Assembly (NCBI RefSeq): GCF_014699075.1
Contig: NZ_JACXAB010000001.1
Span: forward strand, 124,001 to 188,000
DNA from: Microvirga sp.
GTDB lineage: Bacteria; Pseudomonadota; Alphaproteobacteria; Rhizobiales; Beijerinckiaceae
DNA length: 64,000 nt
Direction of reading: 5' to 3'
In this document: one piece after another, positions 18,340-42,224 of the stretch
How the letters are laid out: each line of letters opens with the position of its first letter
Position numbering within the stretch: the first letter of the stretch is position 1
The notes under the pieces: generated by a model
Told to the model about the DNA's origin: nothing
The model's database searches: none
Seen by the model: the letters and a program-made list of their open reading frames with translations, nothing else
Program-made: the position numbers and the translations under genes

Positions 18340-19362
18340 GTGATCGAAACAATCATGGTTTTCGCGTTGGGGTTCGTCGCAGCCTCCCTCATCGCGCTTC
18401 TGATCATCCCAGCCGTCAATGCTCGCGCGGAGCGTCTCGCCCGCCGCCGGGCCGAGGCGCTCTTTCCCATGTCGATCTCCGAACTGACGGCGGAGAAGGA
18501 CCACCTGCGGGCGGAATTCGCCGTTCTCCAGCGGCGGATCGAGCGCAAGGCGGAAGAGGCTCTGGCCTACAAGCGGGAAAACATGGAGGAGCTGGGCCGG
18601 CGGGCGATCCGCATCGAAGCCCTCGAGACCACCCTGGCCGAGCGTGACCAGACGGTTGGTCAACTCGAAGTCAGCCTCGCCAGCACCCAGACGCGCCTTG
18701 CCGCGACCGAGGAAGATCTCGCGCAGACCAGAACATTCCTCGCGAGCACACGCGAAACCCTGACCGCCCTTGAGAACGCCCACCGGGCAACCCTGAACGA
18801 GCTGTCCAACACCCGGATGGAGCTGGAACTCACCCAGCACGAGCGCTCCCGGACGAAGACCGAGCTCCTTCATGCGGAGGAGAAGCTGGCCCGCCTGGAG
18901 GCAGAAGCCGCCGACATGGAGCGCCGGCTCACCACAGCCCTGAGCGACCTCGACACCAAGCGCATCACCATCTCGGATCTCGAGACCCGCCTCATGACTC
19001 AAACGGCTCGAGGCAACGACTTCGAGCGGGCTCTGAACGAGCGGCACAGCGAACTATCGGACGAGCGCCTGCGCCTGGCGGAACTCGCCAAGGGCATTGC
19101 CGCCGAGCAGGAGCGCGGCCTCATCCTCGAGCAGCGCATTCGCGAGATCGAAGCGGAGCGCGACGAAGCCCAGGACCGGCTCGCCAACCAGGAAGTCTCT
19201 GGAGGCCAGAACGATGAGCTGCGCCGCCAGATCTCCGAGGTGGCCGCCCAGATCATGAAGAGCGGCAGCGAGCAATCAACCGAAGTTAAACCTCGCGAGA
19301 ACAACAGGTCCCGCGAGGGCAAGCGTCGGCGCTCGGCCGGGAAGCAGCTCCCGGCGTCTTAG
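18340..19362 (+). CDS. Membrane-anchored coiled-coil protein
   Basis: The 340-aa protein has one N-terminal membrane helix (about residues 3-25) followed by a long, almost uninterrupted coiled coil to about residue 300 and a basic tail. It belongs to an unnamed Rhizobiales pattern with the post-helix sequence LARRRAEALFPMSISEL. No enzymatic motif is seen. A role as an envelope scaffold is a guess from architecture. It starts with GTG; an in-frame ATG at 18355 is an alternative. It converges on the small secreted protein gene. Confidence 0.75.
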   Translation: MIETIMVFALGFVAASLIALLIIPAVNARAERLARRRAEALFPMSISELTAEKDHLRAEFAVLQRRIERKAEEALAYKRENMEELGRRAIRIEALETTLAERDQTVGQLEVSLASTQTRLAATEEDLAQTRTFLASTRETLTALENAHRATLNELSNTRMELELTQHERSRTKTELLHAEEKLARLEAEAADMERRLTTALSDLDTKRITISDLETRLMTQTARGNDFERALNERHSELSDERLRLAELAKGIAAEQERGLILEQRIREIEAERDEAQDRLANQEVSGGQNDELRRQISEVAAQIMKSGSEQSTEVKPRENNRSREGKRRRSAGKQLPAS

Positions 19363-19366
19363 GACC

Positions 19367-19708
19367 TTATTTCGGATCGACCTGCTGGGTGGCCGGCGGG
19401 CGAATGACCGGCGTGGTGCCAGGGTTGGGCACGGGCGCGGGAACGGTGATGTCCGGAGTGGCCGTCTCGGGCGGCCGGATCACGCCGTCCGTCTGTTCGA
19501 GCTTATCGCTCAAGTTATTGGTTGAACCCGTGGTCGATGGACCACTCCCGCCGGAGAGCTTGCTGTCGGGCTCCACCTTCTCGGCCGGCATCTGGCTCGG
19601 CGCCGGCATGTTCGGGGCCTGCTGATTCAGCACCCCGGGGTTCTGCGCGAGGGCTGCCGTTCCGAGGCAGCCCGCCAGAATTGTCGATAGCACCAGAACA
19701 CGGTTCAT
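19367..19708 (-). CDS. Small secreted proline/threonine-rich protein
   Basis: The 113-aa product has a signal peptide (MNRVLVLSTILAGCLGTAAL, cleavage probably after LAQ). The mature part is low-complexity, rich in proline, threonine and asparagine and without cysteine pairs. The ATG at 19708 follows an AAAGGAG site. Function is unknown. It lies 53 bp after the D-amino-acid transaminase gene on the same strand, so co-transcription is possible. Confidence 0.7.
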   Translation of the reverse strand: MNRVLVLSTILAGCLGTAALAQNPGVLNQQAPNMPAPSQMPAEKVEPDSKLSGGSGPSTTGSTNNLSDKLEQTDGVIRPPETATPDITVPAPVPNPGTTPVIRPPATQQVDPK

Positions 19709-19761
19709 GGGTCGCTCCTTTGAAAAGGCAACGGGCGACCTGATGGCCGGTTCCGGCAACG

Positions 19762-20625
19762 CTACTCGGCGGCCAGGGCCGGGACGCGGGCCATGGACAG
19801 GTAAAGCTCCCGCAGGCGCCTCGTGACGGGACCGGGCTTTCCGTCACCAACGGGACGTCCGTCAATGGTCACGATGGGCAGGACGAAGTTCGACGCGCTG
19901 GTGAGGAATGCCTCGGCGGCATCGTAAGCCTCCTCGACCGTGAACCGGCGCTCTTCGAGGGGGATATTGGCCTCTTCCGAGAGCCGCAGGAGGGACTTGC
20001 GGGTGATGCCCGGCAGGATGGCATTCGAGAGCGGGCGCACGACGATGCTGCCCTGCTTCGTGACGATGAAGCCGCTCGACGAGCCGCCCTCGGTCACATA
20101 GCCATCCTCCACCAACCAAGCCTCCTGGGCTCCCGCCTCCTTGGCCGCCTGCTTGGCCAGGACTTGGGCGAGCAGGTTGATCGACTTGATATCGCGCCGG
20201 GCCCAGCGCTGGTCCGGCACCGTCACCACCGCAATGCCCGTGCGGGCGGCCGGAGCGTCGGCAATGGCCTTGGCCTGGGTGAACATGGCCACCGTGGGCT
20301 CGGCGTTCTCCGGGAAGAAGAAGTCCCGCTCCGCCACGCCCCGGGTGACCTGGAAATAGATGAAGCCCTCCACCATGCCGTTGCGGCGGACGATCTCTTC
20401 CTGCAGGGAGGTCCACTCGGCACGCGAATAGGGATTGCGGATGCGCACTTCGGCCAGGGAGCGCTCCAGCCGCTCAAGATGCGCCTCGTTGTCGATCAGC
20501 TGGCCGTCGAGGACGCCGATCCCTTCGTAGACCCCGTCCCCGAACAGAAAGCCCCGATCCATGAAGGGCACCTTGGCCTCCTCGAGCGGCAGGAAGGACC
20601 CATTCAGGAAGACGATGCGGGACAT
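19762..20625 (-). CDS. dat: D-amino-acid transaminase
   Basis: This 287-aa PLP enzyme of aminotransferase class IV interconverts D-alanine and D-glutamate, supplying peptidoglycan precursors. It starts MSRIVFLNGSFLPLEEAKV. Family motifs include FMDRGFLFGDGVYEG, the PLP lysine region (RDIKSINLLAQVLAKQ), and VTEGGSSSGFIV. A GAGG site precedes the ATG at 20625. A branched-chain or aminodeoxychorismate enzyme of the same fold is less likely given the N-terminus. Confidence 0.88.
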   Translation of the reverse strand: MSRIVFLNGSFLPLEEAKVPFMDRGFLFGDGVYEGIGVLDGQLIDNEAHLERLERSLAEVRIRNPYSRAEWTSLQEEIVRRNGMVEGFIYFQVTRGVAERDFFFPENAEPTVAMFTQAKAIADAPAARTGIAVVTVPDQRWARRDIKSINLLAQVLAKQAAKEAGAQEAWLVEDGYVTEGGSSSGFIVTKQGSIVVRPLSNAILPGITRKSLLRLSEEANIPLEERRFTVEEAYDAAEAFLTSASNFVLPIVTIDGRPVGDGKPGPVTRRLRELYLSMARVPALAAE

Positions 20626-20737
20626 GGAAACCTCGAAAGTCGTAACCCAACTCAACCAAGCTTAACCTATAGGCAGCTGAGCCGCTCGACCTATATCGCC
20701 AAGAGCCCTGCAAGCTAAGGCGATAGGTACCCCCATC

Positions 20738-21352
20738 TTGAGATCGACGCTACTTCTCATTTCGACGGTTCTGTCACCCCTGTTCCTGAGCGCTCCAGCC
20801 ACTGCCGGCTCCCAGGCGCCCCAGAGATGGTACAACGAGCGCGGCTATGTTGAGCCCGCGGGCGGCCGCATCATCGCCTGCCACGGCTACGGGTGCACGC
20901 GACGACTGGCACTCTCCGTCGATGGAAACTTGCTGAGCCGTGCGAGCGGGATGTTGAGATCGGCCCAGGGCTCGCCGGCAGCCGAGAGGCAGGCCCTGGC
21001 CGAGGTGATCAGATCCTACACGGCCTACCTGGCCGCCTCCCTGGGCGGGAAGCCTGACGTGCCGGGATCGCCGCCCCAGATGTCGGGCGTGCACGGGCAG
21101 ATGGATTGCCTGGATGAAACCGCGAACACAACCAGCCTGCTCCTCGTTCTGCAGGAGCGCGGGCTCCTCGCCCATCATGCAGTGGAGCATCCGGAATCGC
21201 GGGGGTTCTTCCTTGACGGGCGCTACCCGCATTTCACAGCCGTGATCACCGAGAAACGCACCGGCGCCGAATGGGCCGTGGACCCTTGGAAGAAGGCTCC
21301 GGGTCAGCGGCCGGAGATCCTGCCGCTCGATCGGTGGCGGCAGGATTCCTGA
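20738..21352 (+). CDS. Secreted protein with transglutaminase-like Cys-His-Asp pattern
   Basis: The 204-aa product has a signal peptide ending near PATAGS. No named family was recognised. The C-terminal half carries a cysteine at the start of a helix (QMDCLDETANTTSLLL), then a histidine strand (PHFTAVI), then a WAVDPWKK motif. That spacing is the Cys...His...Asp layout of transglutaminase/papain-like folds. A periplasmic cysteine peptidase or amidase role is a hypothesis. The start codon is TTG at 20738; I saw no ATG in a better position. Confidence 0.65.
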   Translation: MRSTLLLISTVLSPLFLSAPATAGSQAPQRWYNERGYVEPAGGRIIACHGYGCTRRLALSVDGNLLSRASGMLRSAQGSPAAERQALAEVIRSYTAYLAASLGGKPDVPGSPPQMSGVHGQMDCLDETANTTSLLLVLQERGLLAHHAVEHPESRGFFLDGRYPHFTAVITEKRTGAEWAVDPWKKAPGQRPEILPLDRWRQDS

Positions 21353-21371
21353 TCAACCTGAGGCTTTTTGC

Positions 21372-21695
21372 TTATTTCAGGTGCTGGGCAAGGTGCTTGT
21401 TCATTTCGAACATGGTCACCTTCGGCTTGCCGAAGATCGGCTGAAGCTTGTCGTCGGCGATGATCTCGCGCTTGTTCTCGGGGTTCTGCAGGTTGTTCTT
21501 CTTGATGTATTCCCACATCTTGCTCACAACCTCACCGCGCGGCAGCGGGTTCGAGCCCACGATGACGGCGAGCTCCTTGGACGGCTGCAGGGGCTGCTGA
21601 AGAGCATTGGGCTTGGAACCGGCAGCCTTCTTGGCAGCAGGCTTATCTGCAGCCTTCTTCGCGCCGGCTTTTCCGTCAGTCGTCTTGGTCGCCAT
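21372..21695 (-). CDS. SWIB/MDM2 domain protein
   Basis: The 107-aa protein has a lysine/alanine-rich N-terminal tail (about residues 1-30) followed by a SWIB domain (ELAVIVGSNPLPRGEVVSKM ... KREIIADDKLQPIFG). Bacterial SWIB proteins are small and of unknown role, possibly chromatin-like or DNA-linked. The ATG at 21695 follows a strong GGAGGA site. It stands alone, convergent with the secreted protein gene. Confidence 0.9.
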   Translation of the reverse strand: MATKTTDGKAGAKKAADKPAAKKAAGSKPNALQQPLQPSKELAVIVGSNPLPRGEVVSKMWEYIKKNNLQNPENKREIIADDKLQPIFGKPKVTMFEMNKHLAQHLK

Positions 21696-21879
21696 GTATT
21701 CCTCCGGGAACGGGGTGGGGAAGCTTGTCGACAGCCTTGGGTTTGGCTCGAAAAGCATATTGACCAACCTTCGGTCGGACATTCCGGAGAGCGTTCGCAG
21801 ACTCCGGCCCCCTGGTGAAGGTCAATTCCGGCAGAGCTTATGTCCGCTCAACGCCGTCAGCAAGATCGAGTTCAGGAAT

Positions 21880-22332
21880 TTAGGCTGTTTTCGGAAAGGG
21901 CAGGATGTTGGAATCTCGCTCCGTGGGCTGCCGTGTGGTTTCAGCAACATAGAACAGGCGATTCTTGCGCTCCGCTGCGGAAACCACATGGGAGACGATC
22001 ACCTCGTTGGGGCATGGTTTCGCCAGGAACGCCGCTCCGGGAGGGAGATCCCCCTCCGAGGGCCATTGCCGTCCCGACATGATCAGAAGTTCAGTTCCGG
22101 GCCAGAGCTCGTTCACCCGATGAGCCAGTTCGAAGCCGTTGCAGCCGGTCGGCATATCCACATCGGTGAGCAGCACATCGACTTTCAACCCTGCCTCCAT
22201 CAGCACCAGAGCTTCGGCGCCGTTGGCCGCCTCGACGACCCTGAAGCCGGCCTCTTCGAGAAGCTCCGACAGGAAGAGGCGGATCAGAGGCTCGTCTTCA
22301 ACCAGAAGAACTGTGGAATGAGTAGGCAACAT
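21880..22332 (-). CDS. Stand-alone response regulator receiver protein
   Basis: The 150-aa protein is a single receiver domain with acidic residues (LLVEDEPLIR), phosphoacceptor Asp in VLLTDVDMPTG, and lysine in AFLAKPCP. About 30 extra C-terminal residues follow. No output domain is present, so it would act by protein interaction, as in the PhyR/HWE-kinase networks of this group. An EcfG-type promoter lies 31 bp upstream of the start, in the gap after uvsE. The ATG at 22332 has a weak ribosome site. Confidence 0.85.
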   Translation of the reverse strand: MLPTHSTVLLVEDEPLIRLFLSELLEEAGFRVVEAANGAEALVLMEAGLKVDVLLTDVDMPTGCNGFELAHRVNELWPGTELLIMSGRQWPSEGDLPPGAAFLAKPCPNEVIVSHVVSAAERKNRLFYVAETTRQPTERDSNILPFPKTA

Positions 22333-22362
22333 CACTTCGTGACTCGCGATACAATACCCGAC

Positions 22363-22387
22363 AACGACATCTGCTCGGGTTGGTTCC
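22363..22387 (-). promoter_or_regulatory. EcfG-type general stress promoter
   Basis: On the minus strand GGAAC (22387-22383) is followed after 16 nt by CGTT (22366-22363). This matches the alphaproteobacterial sigma-EcfG consensus GGAAC-N16-17-CGTT. It precedes the receiver gene at 22332. Confidence 0.7.
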
Positions 22388-22412
22388 ACCAGCCGTACAG
22401 TTATCCGCAACT

Positions 22413-23468
22413 TTATCCTGTTGCGCGTAAGCTAGATTGTCGTCTCTCCATGTGATGGGCGAGACCCTCGGTGGCAATGTTCTTCAGCTTCGCCTCGATC
22501 TCGAAATCAGACCATGAAAGATGGCGCATCACCAGATCGTTGATGGCTTCGTTCCACATCAGGTCCGAGTGACCGCGCAGGTCCTTCGGCTTGATCCCCG
22601 ATGCAACGAGTGCCTTGAAATCCGGAAGGCTGTGGATGTCGTAGTCCGGAAGCAGGTCTTCGCGGGAGACGCTCACATGGCTCACCGGCCGCACACCGCG
22701 CCAGGATGCGACGATCAGGGAAATGCGCGGATCATCGGGCTCGATATATTCGCCCTGGCTCATGATCCAGTGATGATGAAGATCGAGAACGAGCGGCACA
22801 TCATCCGCAAGAGGCAGGAGATCGTCGAGGCCGAAGCTCACCTCGTCGTTCTCGATAGTGATCAGGTTGCGCGCGGTCTGCGAGAGATGCGCCAACCCGC
22901 TGCGGATCCCTTCCGCGCCCAACGCTTTCGCACCGCCATGGATGTTGATGTGAGCCCCGTGCGGATGCCACCCCTGGCCGTACCCCATGAGAGCCATGAC
23001 TTCGGCATGATACTCGAATTCCGCAATGCCGTTGGCGGCGGCTGAAGGGTTGGCGGAGGCAATCACGCAGAACTGGCCAGGATGCATGCTCAAGCGCACG
23101 TCCCGGTCCCGGGCGAGGCGCCCTGCCTGCGCGAGCTTCGTCTCGATCATGCTGCGCAGATCAGGATCGCGATAGAATTCCTGGCAGCTTACATGGGTGT
23201 AGCCCGGAAGCAGATCGCTGGACAGGCGGTGGAGGCGTTCCGGCTTCGGCCGTCCCGCCACATGCTCGATCTGAAGCCGGAAAGCCTCGAGGTTGTGAGA
23301 CACCACAGCCACGATCTTGTAGTAGGCAGCCTTCGGGTCGAGACGCCCCAGGTACGCCATCGTCGCCGTGGTCGTGTTCATGGCCCGCGCAAGCGGCGCC
23401 GAACCATCTTCGGGAATGTACTTGCAGCAAAAGCCGAACCGAAAGTCTTGCATGGTGGAGGAAGTCAC
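22413..23468 (-). CDS. uvsE: UV damage endonuclease UvsE/UvdE
   Basis: UvsE nicks DNA 5' of UV photoproducts, starting an alternative excision repair route. The 351-aa protein has the TIM-barrel metal-site signatures of the family: FGFCCKYI near the start, RLSMHPGQFCVI, NIHGGAK, and ENDEVSFG. It starts with GTG at 23468, or with ATG at 23453. It sits 31 bp after a receiver gene on the same strand that has an EcfG-type promoter, so it is probably part of the general stress regulon. Confidence 0.93.
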   Translation of the reverse strand: MTSSTMQDFRFGFCCKYIPEDGSAPLARAMNTTTATMAYLGRLDPKAAYYKIVAVVSHNLEAFRLQIEHVAGRPKPERLHRLSSDLLPGYTHVSCQEFYRDPDLRSMIETKLAQAGRLARDRDVRLSMHPGQFCVIASANPSAAANGIAEFEYHAEVMALMGYGQGWHPHGAHINIHGGAKALGAEGIRSGLAHLSQTARNLITIENDEVSFGLDDLLPLADDVPLVLDLHHHWIMSQGEYIEPDDPRISLIVASWRGVRPVSHVSVSREDLLPDYDIHSLPDFKALVASGIKPKDLRGHSDLMWNEAINDLVMRHLSWSDFEIEAKLKNIATEGLAHHMERRQSSLRATG

Positions 23469-23499
23469 CGGGAGAGAACAGGTTCCTCGGCCTCTTGCA

Positions 23500-23853
23500 T
23501 CAGCAAGAGAGAAGGTTGGGAACAGCGTGCTCGACGGTTTTCAGCAGCAGCTTTTCCTCGAACGGCTTTGCCACGAAAGCAGCCAGCTGCAAGGATTGCG
23601 GCAGATCCGAGGGCGCGGATGCTGAGACGAAAACGAATGGGATATGACGTTCGATGAGCGTCTCTGCCACGCCGAAGCTCTTGCCTCCGATGACGTCGAT
23701 ATCGAGCAGCGCGCAGTCGAACCTGTCGTCGAGATGCTGATAGGCTTCGGCGATCGAGCTGATGGAGTCGACAATCTCGTGCCCATCAGCCTCCAGGATG
23801 GCCTGCAGATCGAAGGCGATTGCCGGATCGTCTTCCAGGATCAGAATACGCAT
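23500..23853 (-). CDS. Stand-alone response regulator receiver protein
   Basis: The 117-aa protein is a lone receiver domain: MRILILEDDPAIAF at the start, phosphoacceptor Asp in CALLDIDVIGG, and lysine in AFVAKPFEEK. It is the first gene of a probable operon with uvsE. An EcfG-type promoter lies 82 bp upstream. It is distinct in sequence from the receiver at 21880. Confidence 0.88.
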   Translation of the reverse strand: MRILILEDDPAIAFDLQAILEADGHEIVDSISSIAEAYQHLDDRFDCALLDIDVIGGKSFGVAETLIERHIPFVFVSASAPSDLPQSLQLAAFVAKPFEEKLLLKTVEHAVPNLLSC

Positions 23854-23934
23854 GCCCCAACTCCATCACCGATCCCTGAGGACCACCTTCTGCGCAGCGC
23901 CTTTGGATAGGAAATTTTGGCCCTGTCGGGAGCC

Positions 23935-23959
23935 AACAAACTCGAAGGCGCCTCGTTCC
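23935..23959 (-). promoter_or_regulatory. EcfG-type general stress promoter
   Basis: GGAAC (23959-23955, minus strand) is followed after 17 nt by GTTG (23937 onwards). It matches the GGAAC-N17-GTT form of the sigma-EcfG consensus and points toward the receiver-uvsE pair. Confidence 0.6.
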
Positions 23960-24194
23960 TGGAAGGTCCTGCGTGAGACAGGAATTTAGCGGAACAGAGT
24001 TAAGAAATTTCATCATCTTCTTGAATTCAGGGCAGGTCAGCCCCATCTCAAGCTCACGCTGGCGGCACCCGTGCCGACCAGAAGCGGTCACGATGCCGAG
24101 ATGATGACGCCGGATGTACGCGCATCATCTCGCCGTGGCCGTTATTGTTTATGCAGGGCTGTTGAGTGCCTTGGCGATCACTCAAGTTCATAGC

Positions 24195-24226
24195 AAAAGG
24201 GCGCCGGTTTTCACCGGCGCCCTTTT
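24195..24226. terminator. Bidirectional terminator
   Basis: A 14-bp stem (AAAAGGGCGCCGGT / ACCGGCGCCCTTTT) with a 4-nt loop has U-tracts on both sides. It lies just past the end of the envelope-stress operon at 24250. Between it and the EcfG promoter at 23959 nothing further was found. Confidence 0.88.
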
Positions 24227-24249
24227 TGCATTTCGCTTGAAGCGCTGTG

Positions 24250-24978
24250 TCAGTGGCGATTGGCGTCGCGCTGACCGTTGAACTCGCTTTCGTGACGGCT
24301 GAACTGCGCGTCATCACCGCTGAACGTCTCCTCGACATATTCGCGGCCGCGGCTGGCAGCGTCGCGGGCGTAGCGCATGCCCTGATTGCGAACCTCGTCA
24401 GCCCATTCGCCGAACATCTCGTTCTCGCGGCGAGTGCGGGGCAGAAGAGCGCCGAGAAGCAGGCCGGCCGCCAGACCGACGAGGCCCACCACCATCGGGT
24501 TCTCGGACACGTAGCTCTGAACACCACCGCGGGCATTACCGAAAGCGCGAGAGGACTGGCCGCCCATCTTGTTCATGCGGCGGCGCTGCTGCGAGTAGGT
24601 TCCTGAGGCCCAATCGGACGCGCGCTCATAGGTGTCCCGCGCCCAGTCGGAAGCACCCTCATAAGCATCTTCAGCCTTCTGGCGCACCTGATCGGCCGCC
24701 TGCTGAGCCTTGTCAGTTATGCCACCCTGATCCTGCGCATTCCGCTGCGAGGATTGCCCTGAAGACTGTCCGGGCGACGCGCCCTTGGATTGGCCGGAGG
24801 ACTGTGCGCCGCCTGCCGCCGATCCAGCGTTCTGACCGGATTTCTGATCGTGGGCGTGAGGCATCGGAGCCTCGCCGATATTGCCGACCGATGTGCCGGC
24901 GGAGACCTTGCCGGCCATGCCGGCGTCGTTCTGCTTGTCCGCTCCCGGCTTGCCGGTCTCGTTCTTGGTATTTGCCAT
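24250..24978 (-). CDS. Glycine-zipper membrane protein, DUF883/YtxH-like
   Basis: The 242-aa protein opens with about 85 residues of low-complexity Ser/Gly/Gln-rich sequence. An amphipathic repeat region follows (DAYEGASDWARDTYERASDW), then a single glycine-zipper membrane helix (VGLVGLAAGLLLGALLP) and a charged tail. The architecture resembles ElaB/YqjD (DUF883) and YtxH proteins linked to stationary phase and stress. It is the last of four same-strand genes encoding small membrane proteins. Confidence 0.75.
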   Translation of the reverse strand: MANTKNETGKPGADKQNDAGMAGKVSAGTSVGNIGEAPMPHAHDQKSGQNAGSAAGGAQSSGQSKGASPGQSSGQSSQRNAQDQGGITDKAQQAADQVRQKAEDAYEGASDWARDTYERASDWASGTYSQQRRRMNKMGGQSSRAFGNARGGVQSYVSENPMVVGLVGLAAGLLLGALLPRTRRENEMFGEWADEVRNQGMRYARDAASRGREYVEETFSGDDAQFSRHESEFNGQRDANRH

Positions 24979-24999
24979 GGAAAGCTCCTATTCAATTCT

Positions 25000-25422
25000 T
25001 CAGTAGCGGGAATTCATGCCGGGCCGCTCGAACATCGGGTCCGTCGCAGGCTGGGGAACGGCTTCCGTCCCATAAAGACGGGGATCCTCCGCCTCCATCA
25101 GCAGATGCTCCTCCGTGATGAGGTCCTCATCGGCTGCGATCAACCGAGCCGGACGCATAGGACGGGTCGGGCGGCCGAGGCGGTAAGCGAGAAGCCCAAT
25201 GCCCATGGCAATCAGCATCACCGGCACGGGATTTCGCTTGACCGTATCGAGAACCCGGTCATAGAGCGGCCCATACTGGCCGTTGCGCGCGGTCCCAAGC
25301 ACGTCGTCGACAACACCGGAGACGGTCATCTTGTCCTGGAGGCGGTCGATGGTCTGGTCGAGTTGAGCGCGGCTGCGCTCGATATCCTTCTCCAGATCCT
25401 GCAGACTTTGCGACGTCATCAT
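25000..25422 (-). CDS. DUF3618 domain protein (nutrient-deprivation-induced type)
   Basis: The 140-aa protein has the DUF3618 opening (LEKDIERSRAQLDQTIDRLQ), a short loop, and one membrane helix (VPVMLIAMGIGLLAYRLG). A C-terminal acidic tail follows. Members in Rhizobiales are often annotated as nutrient-deprivation-induced. Its ATG overlaps the upstream stop codon (ATGA), which implies translational coupling with the holin-like gene. Confidence 0.85.
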   Translation of the reverse strand: MMTSQSLQDLEKDIERSRAQLDQTIDRLQDKMTVSGVVDDVLGTARNGQYGPLYDRVLDTVKRNPVPVMLIAMGIGLLAYRLGRPTRPMRPARLIAADEDLITEEHLLMEAEDPRLYGTEAVPQPATDPMFERPGMNSRY

Positions 25423-25811
25423 GCACCTCTCTCGGACAGGACTTCCGCATCGCGCTTGAGCGAGCGCATGGTCCTCTGCGGCGTGAGCGAGGACGACGAC
25501 ATGGCGTTCTTCCCCCACAGCCCGAGGCCGATGGCGATCACGGCCAAAAGGCCCCCGACGATGAGGGCGGCGAGCGCCTCGGAATCGACGACGGTCGCCA
25601 GCCACTCCACGAGCGACTCGGTCAGCAGCATAACGGCCGCGATCGCGAAGACCGCCGCCGCAACCACCATGGCGAGCCCGATGAAGAGGGTTCGCATGTT
25701 CTGGGAGATCTCGGTTTTGAAAAGGGTAAATTCCTTTTGTGCGAGATCGGTGGATTCCCGCAGGGCTTCGCCGACGAGGCCCTGAATCGTTTGATTGCCG
25801 TTACCCTGCAT
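25419..25811 (-). CDS. Holin-X-like membrane protein (DUF1469)
   Basis: The 130-aa protein has an amphipathic N-terminal helix (QGLVGEALRESTDLAQKEFT) and two membrane helices (about 45-70 and 78-100). This matches the Phage_holin_3_6/DUF1469 family. Despite the name, chromosomal members occur in stress operons and are not evidence of a phage. It overlaps the DUF3618 gene by 4 bp. Confidence 0.85.
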   Translation of the reverse strand: MQGNGNQTIQGLVGEALRESTDLAQKEFTLFKTEISQNMRTLFIGLAMVVAAAVFAIAAVMLLTESLVEWLATVVDSEALAALIVGGLLAVIAIGLGLWGKNAMSSSSLTPQRTMRSLKRDAEVLSERGA

Positions 25812-25822
25812 GACCGCCTCCG

Positions 25823-26365
25823 TCAGGCACTGGCTTTGGCGCGTGAACGCTGCTGACCCTGCTGGCCTTGCTGACGTGCGCGGCCCTGACCACCCTGAGC
25901 CGAGCCGGCATTCATGCCGTCATAGCGCAGATCCTCAGCCGTGCTCTTGATGAAGCGAGCTGCGAGGAATCCGACTGCCACGGACACTGCGGCCACGGTC
26001 GCAGGTCGACGGCGCACCACGCCCTCGAACTCATTAAAGAAATCGGCGAAGGTCCGTTCACGGATCGAGTCCGCCAATTGCTCCAGCCCTTCGGCCGCCG
26101 TATCGACAACAGCGCGGATGTTCGGCCGCTCATCGAAGGAATGGGTGGATTCGCGCAGCGTCGTGGCGAAATCGGCGACCGACTGTGCGATGTCGTCCTT
26201 GCGGCGGTCGACATAATCCGTCGCCTGCTCGCGCGCGCTGTCGATGAAGTAACGGCTGCGCTCGACGGCTGCGTCCGCGATATCGCCGACATCGCCCTTC
26301 AGCGCATCCCAATCCTCGGTGCCGTTGTCCTGCTGCCTGTTGGTGTTTTCCTGTCCCACGCCCAT
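25823..26365 (-). CDS. Membrane-associated stress protein of unknown function
   Basis: The 180-aa protein has an acidic helical N-terminal region (about 20-115) and one membrane segment (VAAVSVAVGFLAARFI). It ends in a Gln/Gly/Arg-rich tail. It is the first gene of the four-gene envelope operon, 11 bp before the holin-like gene. The ATG at 26365 was chosen for the GAGAGG site upstream. An EcfG-type promoter lies 28 bp before it. Confidence 0.75.
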   Translation of the reverse strand: MGVGQENTNRQQDNGTEDWDALKGDVGDIADAAVERSRYFIDSAREQATDYVDRRKDDIAQSVADFATTLRESTHSFDERPNIRAVVDTAAEGLEQLADSIRERTFADFFNEFEGVVRRRPATVAAVSVAVGFLAARFIKSTAEDLRYDGMNAGSAQGGQGRARQQGQQGQQRSRAKASA

Positions 26366-26392
26366 GGTCAACCTCTCTCAATCGTGAGGGAG

Positions 26393-26418
26393 TAACCACT
26401 AGAAGCGCGGCAGGTTCC
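26393..26418 (-). promoter_or_regulatory. EcfG-type general stress promoter
   Basis: On the minus strand GGAAC (26418-26414) is followed after 17 nt by GTT (26396-26394). It lies directly upstream of the four-gene envelope-stress operon. Confidence 0.7.
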
Positions 26419-26467
26419 GGATGCGCTTTGAAACCGGGATTTAGGGGATCGGGTCTGTTTCCTGGGC

Positions 26468-26854
26468 CTAGCCCACGGAGGCGAGCCAATCGACGAGATC
26501 GGCGACCTTCCTGCGGGCTTCATCGTCCTTCAAGCGCAGGAATCCCCGCACGAGCCTATCGCTTTCCGATCGGGTCAGGAACTCGGCCATGAGGCTGTCC
26601 CCGGAGAACCCGCCTGCCCGCAAGCCAGGGAGGCCTTCAAAGAAGAACTCGATGCTCACATCGAGAATACCGGCAATCTGGAGCAGGCGGCTGGCGCCGA
26701 TGCGGTTCATCCCCTTCTCGTATTTCTGAACCTGCTGGAAGGTGAGCCCCAGGGCGTCGGCAAGCCGTTCCTGGCTCATGCCGAGCATGGTCCGCCGGGC
26801 CCTCACCCGACTGCCCATATGCCTGTCGATGTGGTTAGGCGCCTTCTTCTGCAA
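26468..26854 (-). CDS. XRE-family HTH regulator, PraR-like
   Basis: The 128-aa protein has an N-terminal Cro/C1-type HTH (RRTMLGMSQERLADALGLTF, QQVQKYEKGMNRIGASRL). This is followed by LDVSIEFFFEG and a helical C-terminal region. The sequence closely resembles PraR, a rhizobial repressor of quorum-sensing and biofilm genes. The start is TTG at 26854 with an AGGAG site upstream; an ATG at 26818 is possible but would remove conserved residues. It is divergent from luxR, which supports a quorum-sensing role. Confidence 0.85.
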   Translation of the reverse strand: MQKKAPNHIDRHMGSRVRARRTMLGMSQERLADALGLTFQQVQKYEKGMNRIGASRLLQIAGILDVSIEFFFEGLPGLRAGGFSGDSLMAEFLTRSESDRLVRGFLRLKDDEARRKVADLVDWLASVG

Positions 26855-26910
26855 GTCCTGCTCCTGCCTCTAATGAACCCTGCCTTGTCTATGCCAGAAT
26901 TAAAACTTTT

Positions 26911-26935
26911 GGTAGCATTATGGCCTCTTGCAACC
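26911..26935. promoter_or_regulatory. Imperfect inverted repeat between xre and luxR
   Basis: GGTAGCA (26911-26917) and TGCAACC (26929-26935) form a 6-of-7 inverted repeat with an 11-bp spacer. It lies in the 112-bp divergent intergenic region. It could be an operator for the XRE or LuxR protein; the evidence is weak. Confidence 0.3.
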
Positions 26936-26966
26936 TTAAGCTATAAGACTCGCTTGGGAGACGCCT

Positions 26967-27698
26967 GTGAGCGGCCGCAGCCTTGACCATACGGTACAAG
27001 TGTTCGAGTTCATCGAGGAGAGCGACAGCCTGGCGTCGCCGCAGGCCATTATCGATGCGATGGAACGCTCATTCGCCCAGTTCCGGTTTGAGAACTTCAT
27101 CATGACCGGACTGCCGCATCCGGAACAGAAAATCGAAAGTTTGGTGCTTCTCAAAAAGTGGCCCCTTGGCTGGTATGAGCGCTACACGCGAAACAGCTAC
27201 GACCGGCACGACCCCGTGATCCGCCTGTGCCAGCGGACCGTCCAGCCCTTCGAATGGAGCGAAGCGCCCTTCGATCCTGAGATCGACTCTAAGGGCAAGG
27301 AGATCATGCAGGGTGCTGCCGATTTCGGCATGCGGCAGGGCTGTTGCCTGCCCATTCACGGGTTGAACGGGTTCGAGGCCTGCCTTTCCATGGGCGGCGC
27401 GGACCTCGACCTGACGCCCCAGACCAAGCCTGCCATCCACCTGATGGCCATGTACGCCTTCGAGCGCGCCCGCCTCGTCCTGGCTCCCTCCCCGCGGCCC
27501 AACCCGCTGACGGCCCGCGAGCGGGAAGCGCTGCGGTGGGCGGCCCTGGGGAAGTCCGCTGCAGATACCGGGGAGATCCTGGGCGTGACGGAGCGGACGA
27601 TTACGGCTCATATCGGCAGCGCCTGCCTCAAGCTGAGCGCCGCCAACAAGACCCATGCGGTCGCCAGGGCGCTTCAGCACCGGCTCATCGAGATCTGA
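26967..27698 (+). CDS. LuxR-family autoinducer-binding transcriptional regulator
   Basis: The 243-aa protein has an N-terminal autoinducer-binding domain with the conserved aromatic and acidic residues (WYERYTRNSYDRHDPVIR). A C-terminal LuxR/GerE HTH follows (LTAREREALRWAALGKSAAD, VTERTITAHIG). It should bind an acyl-homoserine lactone and regulate transcription. It starts with GTG after a GGGAG site. The cognate luxI lies 77 bp downstream on the same strand. Confidence 0.93.
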   Translation: MSGRSLDHTVQVFEFIEESDSLASPQAIIDAMERSFAQFRFENFIMTGLPHPEQKIESLVLLKKWPLGWYERYTRNSYDRHDPVIRLCQRTVQPFEWSEAPFDPEIDSKGKEIMQGAADFGMRQGCCLPIHGLNGFEACLSMGGADLDLTPQTKPAIHLMAMYAFERARLVLAPSPRPNPLTAREREALRWAALGKSAADTGEILGVTERTITAHIGSACLKLSAANKTHAVARALQHRLIEI

Positions 27699-27703
27699 CT
27701 CAC

Positions 27704-27719
27704 CTGTAATTTCCTACAA
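27704..27719 (+). promoter_or_regulatory. Candidate lux box upstream of luxI
   Basis: CTGTAATTTCCTACAA is a partial dyad (TGTA...TACA) in the short luxR-luxI gap, about 56 bp before the luxI start. Its form and position suit a LuxR-type site. It has not been compared with a defined consensus for this genus. Confidence 0.4.
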
Positions 27720-27775
27720 TACCCAAATCAGGCCGGTCATGGACACTGCTCTCCAGAAAAAGGAGGGCATGGGGT

Positions 27776-28420
27776 ATGACCTCAATTCACGTCATCACCG
27801 ATGAGAACAAAGCTGGATATGAAGCGATCCTCGACGATTGCTTCCGCCTGAGGCACGAGGTCTTCGTGGGTGAGCGCGGGTGGCGCGACCTCGAACGCCC
27901 TGACGGGCGGGATGTGGATGCCTATGACAATGACCAAGCAACCTATCTGGTGGCGCTCGACGATGGGCGCGTCATTGGGGGCCTGAGGCTCTACCCGACG
28001 CTGCTGCCGCACATGATCAGCGAGTCCTTTGCCCACCTGGTCAAAGGCCGCGATGTGCTGTCCGGTTCCACGATCCTCGAATGCACCCGCTACTTCATCG
28101 TCAGGGAGCGGCGCATGGGCCGCACGGATTGCCGCCTTCTGGCAGCCTTCCAGCAATTCTGCCTTGAGGAGGGGGTTACGGAGGTGACCGCCGTAGTCGA
28201 GATGTGGTGGCTGCCCCGCTGGCAGCAGGCCGGCTTCAAGGTCCGCCCTCTGGGTCTGCCGACCATGATCGAAGGCCAGCACTGCATCGCAGCCGCCATT
28301 CAGATTTCGGAGGACAGCCTGAGGCATGTCAGCCGGCTGGCGGGCCTGCGCGGCTCGTGCCTGGTGCGCGCCACTGCTGCTCCTGCCCTTGCCGATCGGG
28401 TGCCCCATGTCGCTGCCTGA
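27776..28420 (+). CDS. Acyl-homoserine-lactone synthase (LuxI family)
   Basis: The 214-aa protein has the invariant LuxI residues. The RLRHEVFVGERGW segment holds the conserved Arg, Phe and Trp. Acidic residues appear in DVDAYDND, then GGLRLYPT, then ECTRYFI with Glu and Arg. It makes the quorum-sensing signal from SAM and an acyl donor. The acyl chain (or aryl group, as in some Rhizobiales) cannot be read from sequence. A GGAGG site precedes the ATG. A small gene overlaps its 3' end by 14 bp. Confidence 0.94.
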   Translation: MTSIHVITDENKAGYEAILDDCFRLRHEVFVGERGWRDLERPDGRDVDAYDNDQATYLVALDDGRVIGGLRLYPTLLPHMISESFAHLVKGRDVLSGSTILECTRYFIVRERRMGRTDCRLLAAFQQFCLEEGVTEVTAVVEMWWLPRWQQAGFKVRPLGLPTMIEGQHCIAAAIQISEDSLRHVSRLAGLRGSCLVRATAAPALADRVPHVAA

Positions 28421-28655
28421 CGAGATCCCTCCTGTTACCTCCTTTGTCCAGGAGGAGATGGCTGACGGAGCCACCCGGACGCTCGCGGCCTGCCTTTCTC
28501 AGCTTCCGCCGATCGTGCGGCTGAGGCTTCTGGCCTTCATGCATCTGGTGGAAGATCCGGCCGCCATGAAAGCTGCACTCGAAATCACCCCGTCGGGCTC
28601 CATGCGGCTTACCCTGGACACGGCCGTCACACCCTGCCCGGCCAACTGTCACTGA
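28407..28655 (+). CDS. Small protein overlapping luxI (positional CinS-like candidate)
   Basis: The 82-aa protein starts with ATG at 28407 inside the luxI 3' end and reads MSLPDEIPPVTSFVQEE. No domain was recognised; a short helical core (LPPIVRLRLLAFMHLVED) is visible. In Rhizobium leguminosarum a small gene, cinS, is co-expressed with the luxI gene cinI. CinS counteracts PraR there. The present arrangement (PraR-like XRE, luxR, luxI, small gene) has the same logic. Sequence homology to CinS was not established. Confidence 0.7.
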   Translation: MSLPDEIPPVTSFVQEEMADGATRTLAACLSQLPPIVRLRLLAFMHLVEDPAAMKAALEITPSGSMRLTLDTAVTPCPANCH

Positions 28656-28682
28656 GCTCCTCCGCCCCCAGGAGCTCAAAAG

Positions 28683-28712
28683 AAAACCCCGCGCTCCCGG
28701 GCGCGGGGTTTT
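28683..28712. terminator. Bidirectional terminator
   Basis: A 12-bp stem (AAAACCCCGCGC / GCGCGGGGTTTT) with a 6-nt loop lies between the convergent luxI operon and yciF-like gene. Confidence 0.9.
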
Positions 28713-28730
28713 CGACGTCGGATGAGAACG

Positions 28731-29225
28731 TCAGGCGGCCTTGGTGTTGACGCGCGCCTCGGCGAGCTGGGTCAGAAGCTGATCGGTCTTCTTCTCCTCC
28801 TGAAGGTTCTGGTCCAGGAGCTTGGCGGCATCATTCATGCCGAGTTCCTGGGCCCAAGTCTTCAGGGAGCCGTAGCGGGTGATCTCGTAGTGCTCCACCG
28901 CCTGGGCGGCAGCCAGGATGCCGGCATCGAGAGCCTCGCTGTCGGCAAAGTCCTCCATGACTTCCTTGCCTTCCTCGATGATGCCGTTGATGGCCTCGCA
29001 CTGCACGCCGCGGGCCGGCTTGCCGAGCATCTCGAAAACCTTCTCAAGGCGCTCGATCTGGCCTTCCGTTTCCACACGATGGGTCTCGAAAGCCTGCCGC
29101 AGTTCCTCCGATTCCGCATTCTTCGCCATCTTCGGCAGGGACTTCAGGATCTGCTTTTCGGCGTAGAAAATGTCCTTCAGCGTGTGAAGGAAGAGGTCTT
29201 CCAGGGTCTTTTCCTTGGCTGGCAT
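28731..29225 (-). CDS. Ferritin-like YciF family protein (DUF892), copy 1
   Basis: The 164-aa protein has the DUF892 opening (TLEDLFLHTLKDIFYAEKQI) and later AVEHYEITRYGSL. It forms a four-helix bundle related to ferritin/rubrerythrin with Glu and His metal ligands. YciF-type proteins are stress-induced; their biochemical activity is unsettled. An EcfG-type promoter lies 32 bp upstream. The ATG at 29225 has a GGAG site. A paralogue lies at 41616. Confidence 0.92.
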   Translation of the reverse strand: MPAKEKTLEDLFLHTLKDIFYAEKQILKSLPKMAKNAESEELRQAFETHRVETEGQIERLEKVFEMLGKPARGVQCEAINGIIEEGKEVMEDFADSEALDAGILAAAQAVEHYEITRYGSLKTWAQELGMNDAAKLLDQNLQEEKKTDQLLTQLAEARVNTKAA

Positions 29226-29256
29226 GGTGACAACTCCTTGGTTGAAGCGTGGACTC

Positions 29257-29281
29257 AACGGAGGCCAAGCTTTGAGGTTCC
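29257..29281 (-). promoter_or_regulatory. EcfG-type general stress promoter (yciF copy 1)
   Basis: GGAAC (29281-29277, minus strand), 16 nt, then CGTT (29260-29257). This is an exact match to the sigma-EcfG consensus, directly upstream of the YciF-like gene. Confidence 0.75.
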
Positions 29282-29309
29282 GGACCTTTTCCGGACTCTT
29301 TTTCAGAGG

Positions 29310-29335
29310 GGAACAACAGCGCTTCGCGTCGCGTT
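29310..29335 (+). promoter_or_regulatory. EcfG-type general stress promoter (DUF2892 gene)
   Basis: GGAAC (29310-29314), 17 nt, then CGTT (29332-29335) on the plus strand. It is divergent from the yciF promoter 29 bp away, so one short region drives two stress genes. Confidence 0.75.
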
Positions 29336-29363
29336 CGGCCCATGCCAATCAAGGAGAAATGAC

Positions 29364-29624
29364 GTGACGAACATGATATCGGCCAGGGCCGGATCGCTGA
29401 TGAACGGGCCCGCCAATCTCAGCACGACAGAGCGCGGCGCCTACATGCTGGCGGGCCTCGGCCTTGCGGCCGCAGCCGCCAAGCCCCGTCCCAACCCGCT
29501 CCTGAACATCCTGGCGCTTGCGGGCGGATCCTATCTGGCTTGGCGCGGCTATGTTGGCCAGTGCCCGGTCAAAGCGGCCTTGACAGGCTCTTCGGACAGC
29601 GGTCGTCTCGCCCATCACGGCTAA
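29364..29624 (+). CDS. YgaP-type small membrane protein (DUF2892)
   Basis: The 86-aa protein matches DUF2892: a NLSTTERGAYMLAGLGL segment, a second hydrophobic segment, and the closing WRGYVGQCPV. It is a small inner-membrane protein of unknown function that accompanies stress and rhodanese genes elsewhere. The GTG at 29364 follows an AAGGAG site at ideal spacing; an ATG at 29373 is an alternative. An EcfG-type promoter lies just upstream. Confidence 0.82.
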   Translation: MTNMISARAGSLMNGPANLSTTERGAYMLAGLGLAAAAAKPRPNPLLNILALAGGSYLAWRGYVGQCPVKAALTGSSDSGRLAHHG

Positions 29625-29631
29625 AGGAAAA

Positions 29632-29655
29632 GGGCCACAGTTTCCGCTGTGGCCC
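29632..29655 (-). terminator. Terminator of the glsB-like gene
   Basis: A 9-bp stem (GGGCCACAG / CTGTGGCCC) with a 6-nt loop is followed on the minus strand by TTTTCC. It may also slow plus-strand transcripts of the DUF2892 gene. Confidence 0.75.
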
Positions 29656-29679
29656 CTCCTGATTTCGGTTCTGGTGCGA

Positions 29680-29946
29680 TCAGTATGTCGAGCTCGAGCG
29701 ACGACCGGCGATCAGGCCATAGATGAAGAGCACCACGATAGCGCCGACGATAGCGCCGATGAAGCCCGCTCCTTCATCGGCCCGGTACCAGCCCAAAGCC
29801 TGTCCAAGGTAGGTGGCGACCAAAGCGCCGACGATTCCGAGGATCGTCGTCATGATGAAACCCGATGGCTCGTTCCGGCCCGGCATGATCCATTTGGCGA
29901 TCAAACCCGCCACGAAGCCGATGATGATGGTCCAGATGATGCTCAT
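29680..29946 (-). CDS. GlsB/YeaQ/YmgE family stress membrane protein
   Basis: The 88-aa protein has three hydrophobic segments and the family sequence GLIAKWIMPGRNEPSGF and GIVGALVATYLG. It belongs to the transglycosylase-associated small membrane proteins induced by stress. The ATG at 29946 was chosen over an upstream in-frame start. No EcfG-type promoter was found on its strand, although one on the opposite strand lies next door. Confidence 0.9.
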   Translation of the reverse strand: MSIIWTIIIGFVAGLIAKWIMPGRNEPSGFIMTTILGIVGALVATYLGQALGWYRADEGAGFIGAIVGAIVVLFIYGLIAGRRSSSTY

Positions 29947-29977
29947 GAGAGAGTCCCTGTGAGTGTTGCCTCCACAA

Positions 29978-30002
29978 GGAACGCGCATCTTCGGCTAAGG
30001 TT
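29978..30002 (+). promoter_or_regulatory. EcfG-type general stress promoter (55-aa gene)
   Basis: GGAAC (29978-29982), 17 nt, then GTT (30000-30002) on the plus strand, 88 bp before the start of the small gene at 30090. Confidence 0.6.
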
Positions 30003-30089
30003 GCGGCGGAGGGTCGTTCCGGCCCTCTTTTCATGATCTCGCCGCACTTGAAGGCGACGCTTCCGGTTCATCGATAGGAGGTCTCGGTT

Positions 30090-30257
30090 ATGAATTCTTC
30101 CGGCGGTTCCTGGAGCTACGAATCCGTGCAGGCCCTTCTGACCCTGGCCCGGGAGGGAATTCCCGTCTCGGTCATCAGCCTGAAGCTGAAGCGATCAATC
30201 ACGGAGGTTCGAGCCAAGCTGGACGATCTCGGCGTCACGCCGGCGGCGGAAGTGTAA
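30090..30257 (+). CDS. 55-aa small helical protein
   Basis: The reading frame encodes 55 residues with an ATG preceded by an excellent AGGAGGT site. The protein has a helix-turn-helix-like composition (VQALLTLAREGIPVSVISL, then SITEVRAKLDDLGV). It resembles the first part of small HTH domains in which a helix pair recognises DNA. Function is unknown. An EcfG-type promoter lies upstream, which suggests a stress-induced regulator. Confidence 0.7.
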   Translation: MNSSGGSWSYESVQALLTLAREGIPVSVISLKLKRSITEVRAKLDDLGVTPAAEV

Positions 30258-30354
30258 ACCGCAGACCCGGGAGGATCATCGCGCATCAGGGTTTCGGAGT
30301 GCGCCAACCGCGCCTTCGAACCCTCATCCTACCTGCATCGATGTCTTGGAAAAA

Positions 30355-30431
30355 TGGCGCGCCCGAAAGGATTCGAACCTCTGACCCCCAGATTCGTAGT
30401 CTGGTGCTCTATCCAGCTGAGCTACGGGCGC
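30355..30431 (-). tRNA. tRNA-Arg (ACG)
   Basis: A full cloverleaf reads on the minus strand: acceptor GCGCCCG/CGGGCGC, anticodon stem CCAGA/TCTGG with loop CTACGAA, T-loop TTCGAAT, and encoded CCA. The anticodon ACG decodes CGN arginine codons after A34 deamination. Confidence 0.96.
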
Positions 30432-30535
30432 TTGGTCGGCTAGGTCGTTGCGGGAAGCAACGTTGGCCGAGGCCGGTGACATAAAGGGATCCGGCGCGGT
30501 TGGCAAGCCTCTTGTGCGGAAGTTTTGCCGAAAGC

Positions 30536-41615: not shown

Positions 41616-42119
41616 TTACGCAGCCTGCGTGTTGATCTTGCTCTCGGCAATCCGATTGAGCTTCTGGTCGGTTGCCTTTTCCTGATCCAGGATCTGGTGC
41701 AGGACGCCGGCGCAGTCGTCGCGACCGAGCTGCTTGGCCCAGGCCACGAGCGTGCCGTAGCGGGTGATCTCGTAGTGTTCCACGGCCTGAGCGGCGGCGA
41801 GCAGCGCGGCGTCGAGAACCTGCGGATCGGCGATCTCGCCGGAGATCTCCTGCGCTTCGTCGATGATGCCATCGATGGCCGGGCAGGTCACACCCTTGGG
41901 ATCATGGCCATGCATGCGGAAGACCTGCTCGACCATCTGGATCTGCTGCTGGGTCTCGCCGAGATGGGTCTGGAAGGCCTGTTTCAGCTGCGGATCGGTA
42001 ACCTGTTCGATCATCTGCGGCAGCGCCTTCGTGATCTGCTGCTCGGCGTAGTAGATATCCTGCAGGGTATGGATGAAGAGGTCATCCAACGACTTGATGT
42101 CCTTTGACAAAAGGCCCAT
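41616..42119 (-). CDS. Ferritin-like YciF family protein (DUF892), copy 2
   Basis: The 167-aa protein shares the DUF892 layout of the copy at 28731 (SLDDLFIHTLQDIYYAEQQI and AVEHYEITRYGTL). It diverges elsewhere, so it is an old paralogue. An EcfG-type promoter lies 80 bp upstream, overlapping the rmuC stop codon. The ATG at 42119 leaves the preceding 50 residues of open frame out as untranslated leader. Confidence 0.92.
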   Translation of the reverse strand: MGLLSKDIKSLDDLFIHTLQDIYYAEQQITKALPQMIEQVTDPQLKQAFQTHLGETQQQIQMVEQVFRMHGHDPKGVTCPAIDGIIDEAQEISGEIADPQVLDAALLAAAQAVEHYEITRYGTLVAWAKQLGRDDCAGVLHQILDQEKATDQKLNRIAESKINTQAA

Positions 42120-42199: not shown

Positions 42200-42224
42200 A
42201 ACGTCGCGGGCGAAAGGCGGTTCC
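42200..42224 (-). promoter_or_regulatory. EcfG-type general stress promoter (yciF copy 2)
   Basis: GGAAC (42224-42220, minus strand), 16 nt, then CGTT (42203-42200). It is an exact consensus match. The first G is also the last base of the rmuC stop codon. Confidence 0.72.

Follow-up and report, generated by a model that had tools for sequence, protein, structure and literature searches.

In the EcfG regulon described for Sphingopyxis, the two commonest −35 boxes are reported to be GGAAC and GCAAC, and in vitro transcription reportedly fell when CGTT was changed to TGTT or CATT (PMC7083833). The sites reported for Sphingomonas melonis include GCAAC..CGTT and GGAAC..GGTT, several of them 25–54 base pairs (bp) before the gene (PMC6599016). 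Stress sigma factors have also been connected with a type of membrane operon, as yqjC, yqjD and yqjE of Escherichia coli are reported to be sigma-S dependent (PMC10746276) and the related PA3040 operon of Pseudomonas aeruginosa to be AlgU dependent (PMC11302039). Here we describe a 64,000-nucleotide stretch of a Microvirga genome (6.6 Mb in 101 contigs), positions 124001–188000 of contig C13, hereafter the window. We consider it highly probable that positions 19367–30004 of the window form a conserved sigma-EcfG general-stress island of Microvirga, in which each of seven promoters would have a short unit of its own: a small secreted protein; a single-domain receiver (RR1); a second receiver (RR2) together with the ultraviolet (UV)-damage endonuclease gene uvsE; a four-gene membrane operon; YciF; a DUF2892 protein; and GlsB/YeaQ. 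An eighth EcfG promoter is predicted at 42200. It is probable that stress induces the genes behind these sites in concert.

The assignment is carried by the conservation of the sites in 24 congeneric stretches (L052–L075), in which a site was sought within 250 bp upstream of each orthologue; orthologues were skipped where the match started past residue 25 or lay too close to the locus end. In two rows, L073 for RR1 and L072 for RR2, the match was the other receiver; these rows were left out of the counts but stayed in the alignments. The block is syntenic across the 24 stretches, with losses mostly in the more distant ones. The pattern GGAAC-N16/17-NGTT is present before the small secreted-protein gene in 22/22 relatives (where the strict pattern, GGAAC-N16/17-CGTT, gives the same count), before RR1 in 22/22 (23 minus one paralogous match), before RR2 in 22/23 (24 minus one paralogous match), before the operon head in 24/24 and before YciF in 20/20. 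For the DUF2892 gene the script found 21/23, which became 23/23 after inspection, both misses carrying the site at the edge of the cut. Pooled over RR1, RR2–uvsE, the membrane operon, YciF and DUF2892, the site is kept in 111/112 orthologues. Nineteen block genes were tested, with GlsB and a gene for a protein of 55 amino acids (aa) counted apart, and the eleven other genes (aminotransferase, the gene at 20738, SWIB, uvsE, the gene at first called YtxH-like, DUF3618, DUF1469, helix-turn-helix, luxR, luxI and histidine kinase) had a site in only 1 of 212 upstream regions. Reversed control patterns matched 0/388 upstream regions in the strict form and 3/388 in the relaxed form. In motif-blind alignments, the eight core positions showed a mean identity to the window of 0.96–1.00 and the spacers one of 0.43–0.84, with 1 to 3 of the 115–116 offsets scoring as high as the motif. 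The 42200 site was found in 23/23 best matches in other genomes, 67–87 bp before the start (of 25 other genomes, the remaining two, L171 and L172, have only a YciF-like copy and no close counterpart); a second DUF892 copy in L173, 79% identical, is without a site. These sites, their positions and their conservation are direct observations. They support the view that five of the six sites placed in the block by a first-pass annotation of the sequence, plus the one at 42200, are held at a near-constant distance before their orthologues, as functional EcfG promoters should be. The predicted promoters and their genes are as follows.

19730..19754, minus strand: EcfG-type promoter, strict, 21 bp before the 113-aa gene; absent from the first-pass list
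19367..19708, minus strand: small secreted-protein-like gene, 113 aa, its N-terminal segment hydrophobic and signal-like; Pfam gives no family at E 0.001
22363..22387, minus strand: EcfG-type promoter of RR1, strict, 30 bp before the ATG
21880..22332, minus strand: RR1, single-domain receiver, 150 aa (PF00072)
23935..23959, minus strand: EcfG-type promoter of the RR2–uvsE pair, −10 box TGTT, 81 bp before the ATG
23500..23853, minus strand: RR2, single-domain receiver, 117 aa, with PFVFVSAS (PF00072)
22413..23468, minus strand: UvsE/UvdE UV-damage endonuclease (PF03851, 5.6e-37), on the strand of RR2 and 31 bp behind it
26394..26418, minus strand: EcfG-type promoter of the membrane operon, −10 box GGTT, 28 bp before the ATG
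25823..26365, minus strand: operon gene 1, 180 aa, with one hydrophobic segment at the C-terminal end; no family reaches its cut-off
25419..25811, minus strand: operon gene 2, DUF1469/Phage_holin_3_6 (PF07332, 1.6e-26), a Pfam family to which E. coli YqjE also belongs
25000..25419, minus strand: operon gene 3, DUF3618 protein (PF12277, 3.2e-9)
24250..24978, minus strand: operon gene 4, YqjD-like glycine-zipper membrane protein (hhalign 4.8e-7 to YqjD)
24193..24227, no strand assigned: GC-rich hairpin between A and T runs, by sequence inspection a possible operon terminator before the RR2 promoter
29257..29281, minus strand: EcfG-type promoter of YciF, strict, 31 bp before the ATG
28731..29225, minus strand: YciF-type protein, DUF892 (PF05974, 5.4e-63)
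29310..29335, plus strand: EcfG-type promoter of the DUF2892 gene, strict, 28 bp before the GTG, divergent from YciF
29364..29624, plus strand: DUF2892/YgaP-like transmembrane protein, 86 aa (PF11127, 2.8e-6)
29980..30004, minus strand: EcfG-type promoter of GlsB/YeaQ, GCAAC-N16-CGTT, 33 bp before the ATG
29680..29946, minus strand: GlsB/YeaQ/YmgE-type small membrane protein (PF04226, 9.3e-15, over cut-off; NF007771, 6.7e-18, below cut-off)
42200..42224, minus strand: EcfG-type promoter of the second DUF892 gene, strict, 80 bp before the ATG
41616..42119, minus strand: second DUF892 protein (PF05974, 2.8e-64)

Every predicted promoter combines a GGAAC or GCAAC −35 box with a CGTT-like −10 box at 16–17 bases, the latter being TGTT for RR2 and GGTT for the operon. 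The first-pass annotation had placed six sites in 21880–30257 and one at 42200, and all seven are in the sequence where it had them. Four of them have the strict form GGAAC-N16/17-CGTT; the site at 23935 has TGTT, and those at 26394 and 29978 have GGTT. Its list stands for the five conserved sites and 42200, but the site at 29978 had been given to the wrong strand and gene, and the promoter at 19730–19754 had been missed. We judge the regulon very likely to be real. Its kind is known, and relative to the first-pass list it gains one site, has another moved and loses one gene; its EcfG dependence is a prediction. A sigma-70 promoter scan of 19300–30500 gave 0 sites (shuffles, 1.8), and a terminator scan found 12 candidates versus 8.1 in shuffles, the hairpin at 24193–24227 not among them. 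Inside the island there is also a luxR–luxI quorum-sensing pair at 26967–28420, with luxR present in 17 of the 24 relatives' stretches; among the Microvirga relatives, an EcfG-type site was found upstream of luxR in 0/17 and of luxI in 0/16.

The moved site was first proposed as a plus-strand promoter serving the 55-aa gene. The plus-strand match at 29978–30002 overlaps a minus-strand GCAAC-N16-CGTT at 29980–30004, and the two readings can be told apart by their conservation. GGAAC-N16-GGTT does occur on the plus strand in 12/17 relatives, 87–101 bp before the 55-aa gene, but GGAAC is lost in L062 and L064–L066, and L067, the remaining miss, has its 55-aa match at another place. On the minus strand, GCAAC-N16/17-CGTT is kept 31–35 bp before GlsB in 23/23 relatives, a count that includes six genomes without a 55-aa match in the stretch; in the window, this broader pattern has one match and its reversed control none. 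The site is therefore better read as a minus-strand promoter of the divergent GlsB/YeaQ gene. Because the minus-strand reading is conserved and GCAAC/CGTT is known in measured EcfG regulons, the 55-aa gene was removed from the list, and we regard the proposal that the plus-strand site serves it as very unlikely. The sequence GCAACCTT at the GlsB promoter is kept in all 24 sequences, the window included. A distinct GCAACCTT regulon was considered and rejected, as GCAACCTT-N13/14-CGTT occurs a single time genome-wide, at GlsB. Before the 55-aa gene, at 30010–30090, the stretch ATGATCTYGCC..CACTT.....GACGCTT looks conserved by eye in most of the 17 relatives, and it may serve that gene as a promoter of its own or as a regulator site.

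Several observations weigh against an EcfG island. By itself, the motif shows only modest genome-wide enrichment, with 152 strict matches in the own genome versus 104 for the reversed control, and strict matches are fewer than the reversed control in 5/24 congeners and 14/16 other genomes of the order (among these 40 relatives, for example, 109 versus 133 in G001 and 68 versus 100 in G005). The RR2 site is missing in L059, and its −10 box is CGTT in just 13/24 rows. At three promoters the −10 or −35 box departs from the consensus, and conservation would also fit another extracytoplasmic function (ECF) sigma factor of the same recognition. One could hold that these are chance matches in a GC-rich genome and that a short, permissive pattern has produced the cluster as an artefact. 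Within the window the density is not equalled by shuffled sequence, the comparison that the first-pass annotation had itself named: the strict pattern has 5 matches versus 0.71 expected, and the relaxed GGAAC-N16-18-GTT has 13 versus 3.67, and none of 100 shuffles reached either 5 or 13. The genome-wide scan it had proposed, run with the strict pattern, exceeds the reversed control, but the two counts are too close for specificity, and at least four strict sites fell within some 9.6 kb in 19% of 5000 uniform placements of 152 sites. The idea that strict-motif density proves the cluster was thus rejected (control too close, P 0.19), and motif matching taken alone is weak evidence, the strict pattern being unspecific genome-wide. 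It is conservation across the 24 Microvirga genomes that decides the question left open by the counts: near-complete retention at near-constant distance while the spacers diverge, set against 1/212 at the other genes, makes a chance origin scarcely credible. In such genomes, EcfG motif counts mislead unless conservation is added. Counted as conserved promoters, seven lie within 10.3 kb, which occurred in 0/3000 random placements each of 50, 100 and 200 promoters and in 0.1% with 300, under a uniform null that ignores gene structure. The dense cluster first described therefore survives as seven conserved promoters, not as strict density, and the phyR–nepR–ecfG locus (L039:784-6432, contig C101) is denser, with 10 strict matches in ~5.6 kb (0/5000 random trials), more than in any other stretch seen. 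There is thus an island in the window, yet not the densest stretch of the genome. With the missed promoter at 19730 added, the regional regulon that had been proposed is supported, its members being conserved and the 55-aa gene dropped.

The sites may also be real promoters that answer to another ECF sigma factor or to one specialised EcfG paralogue, which would leave the block outside the main PhyR switch. The genome gives some room for this, as it holds about ten EcfG-like loci (two fragmentary), 11 NepR matches (10 over cut-off) and one full-length PhyR. This PhyR is encoded on C101 and has both the PhyR sigma-like and the receiver domain; a further 16 PhyR-query matches cover the receiver part only. 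Rhizobium etli is reported to have two EcfG proteins with largely separate regulons (PMC3892343). On the other hand, reports on several genera give this motif for EcfG, and the genome's own phyR locus carries the same strict sites, and we hold this alternative to be unlikely. PhyR, NepR and EcfG are all encoded in the genome, as expected for sigma-EcfG-dependent promoters. The claim of the first-pass annotation that phyR, nepR and ecfG are absent from the window was borne out, with the NepR and EcfG matches lying outside it and the PhyR query meeting only two single receivers within it. The NepR expansion extends to the genus, with 2–15 matches in the 24 congeners versus 0–2 in 16 genomes drawn from the order's other families; Methylobacterium extorquens AM1 is reported to have six EcfG, and the genus Methylobacterium is said to have the most (PMC4814048). 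Two loci, L047:3658-5099 and L044:4365-5756, are alike in having an EcfG-type site with a nearly identical spacer and an orphan NepR-like gene downstream, and the gene between has, judged by eye, the look of a LuxR/NarL-type regulator.

For the sigma-EcfG island, we presume the standard partner switch, in which stress would lead phosphorylated PhyR, encoded on C101, to bind NepR and free EcfG, and RNA polymerase with the freed EcfG would then read the island promoters. As the most likely roles, the YqjDE-like operon would act at the membrane and in ribosome dormancy, UvsE would repair UV damage, and RR1 and RR2 would feed back on stress kinases. The EcfG dependence, the choice of the acting EcfG paralogue and the gene roles are inferences.

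UvsE scored 127.9 bits with PF03851 (cut-off 24) and 103.8 bits with the NCBIfam model uvde, under its cut-off of 124.45. A phyR mutant of M. extorquens is reported in a review to be more UV-sensitive (PMC8069551), and UvsE is a candidate for explaining why phyR mutants are UV-sensitive; a literature search, with most subscription journals and supplementary tables outside it, found no link of uvsE with PhyR or EcfG. In both stand-alone receivers, RR1 and RR2, acidic and lysine residues are conserved. They were considered as FATGUY (SdrG/MrrA) regulators, whose single-domain motif is reported to be PFXFATG(G/Y) (PMC5964349), and this was rejected, as RR2 has PFVFVSAS and RR1 LLIMSGR in its place. 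Caulobacter LovR is reported to be SigT-controlled and has been proposed as part of a feedback sink (PMC5964349); a feedback role for RR1 and RR2 would be a guess from this analogy.

The membrane operon spans 26365–24250 and encodes gene 1, the DUF1469 protein, the DUF3618 protein and the YqjD-like protein. PF07332 also matches E. coli YqjE (3.5e-21), which places the DUF1469 protein in the YqjE family, although a direct hhalign of the two was not significant (0.041). The YqjD-like protein aligns with YqjD over 48 columns of the glycine-zipper segment (hhalign 4.8e-7) and with YgaM at 1e-5, the controls YqjE and AlaE giving 0.51 and 0.21. It did not match the DUF883 models (PF05957/PF19029) or any other Pfam family at E 0.1, and its score with NF007523 (4.9e-4) is far under that model's cut-off. 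Its earlier naming as YtxH-like was rejected on the same lack of any Pfam match at E 0.1. Gene 1 as a YqjD-like protein was likewise unsupported (hhalign 0.027 over 21 columns). A contig scan for the operon returned 52 loci, of which 13 outside Microvirga were analysed, 12 from Methylobacterium and one from Rhizobiales YIM 77505. In all 13, each of the four operon genes is matched and GGAAC-N16-(G/T)GTT precedes the operon head, but 10 of them are close relatives with a near-identical spacer, which weakens the count to few independent cases. The uvsE gene lies downstream on the same strand in 10/12 Methylobacterium loci, and one of the remaining two is on a contig that stops within the operon. 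Where Microvirga has uvsE, the gene lies behind RR2, which has its own site. We tentatively put forward, while thinking it more likely wrong than right, a stress-dormancy module in which an ancestral YqjE-like and YqjD-like unit was attached to sigma-S, AlgU and EcfG in different lineages, was joined to UvsE in Methylobacterium and Microvirga, and in Microvirga also to a stress-induced receiver feeding back on the PhyR kinases. If true, this would account in part for the UV sensitivity seen in phyR mutants.

The type of switch is well known, and the finding is partly new in its gene list, where a YqjDE-like operon and a UV endonuclease are predicted to answer to the general stress response. 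It provides a conserved, testable list of general-stress targets for Microvirga, and would add a third stress sigma factor to those connected with the YqjDE-type proteins, which are poorly understood. In the literature on the general stress response, Microvirga is unmentioned among the matches listed, which does not exclude earlier print, and DUF3618 with 'general stress response' was matched only for Actinoplanes, supplementary tables lying outside the search.

Compared with the EcfG regulons of Sphingopyxis granuli, S. melonis, R. etli and M. extorquens, the sites share GGAAC or GCAAC, a spacing of ~16–17 bases, a CGTT-like box and a short distance to the start, and the genome likewise encodes PhyR, NepR and EcfG, whereas the gene content differs and the targets here are packed in a conserved island. 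RR1 and RR2 stand alone like SdrG, MrrA and LovR, and their predicted EcfG control resembles the SigT control of LovR; unlike SdrG and MrrA, RR2 retains PFxF without the ATG(G/Y) of FATGUY, and RR1 is without the motif. As in yqjCDEK of E. coli (sigma-S) and PA3040–3042 of P. aeruginosa (AlgU), a PF07332 protein and a YqjD-like glycine-zipper protein are found together under a stress sigma factor, and we infer that the same kind of operon answers here to a third one, predicted to be EcfG. In contrast to both, the YqjE-like gene comes before the YqjD-like gene, the DUF883 Pfam models find no match, and there are four genes, two of them without a counterpart by sequence.

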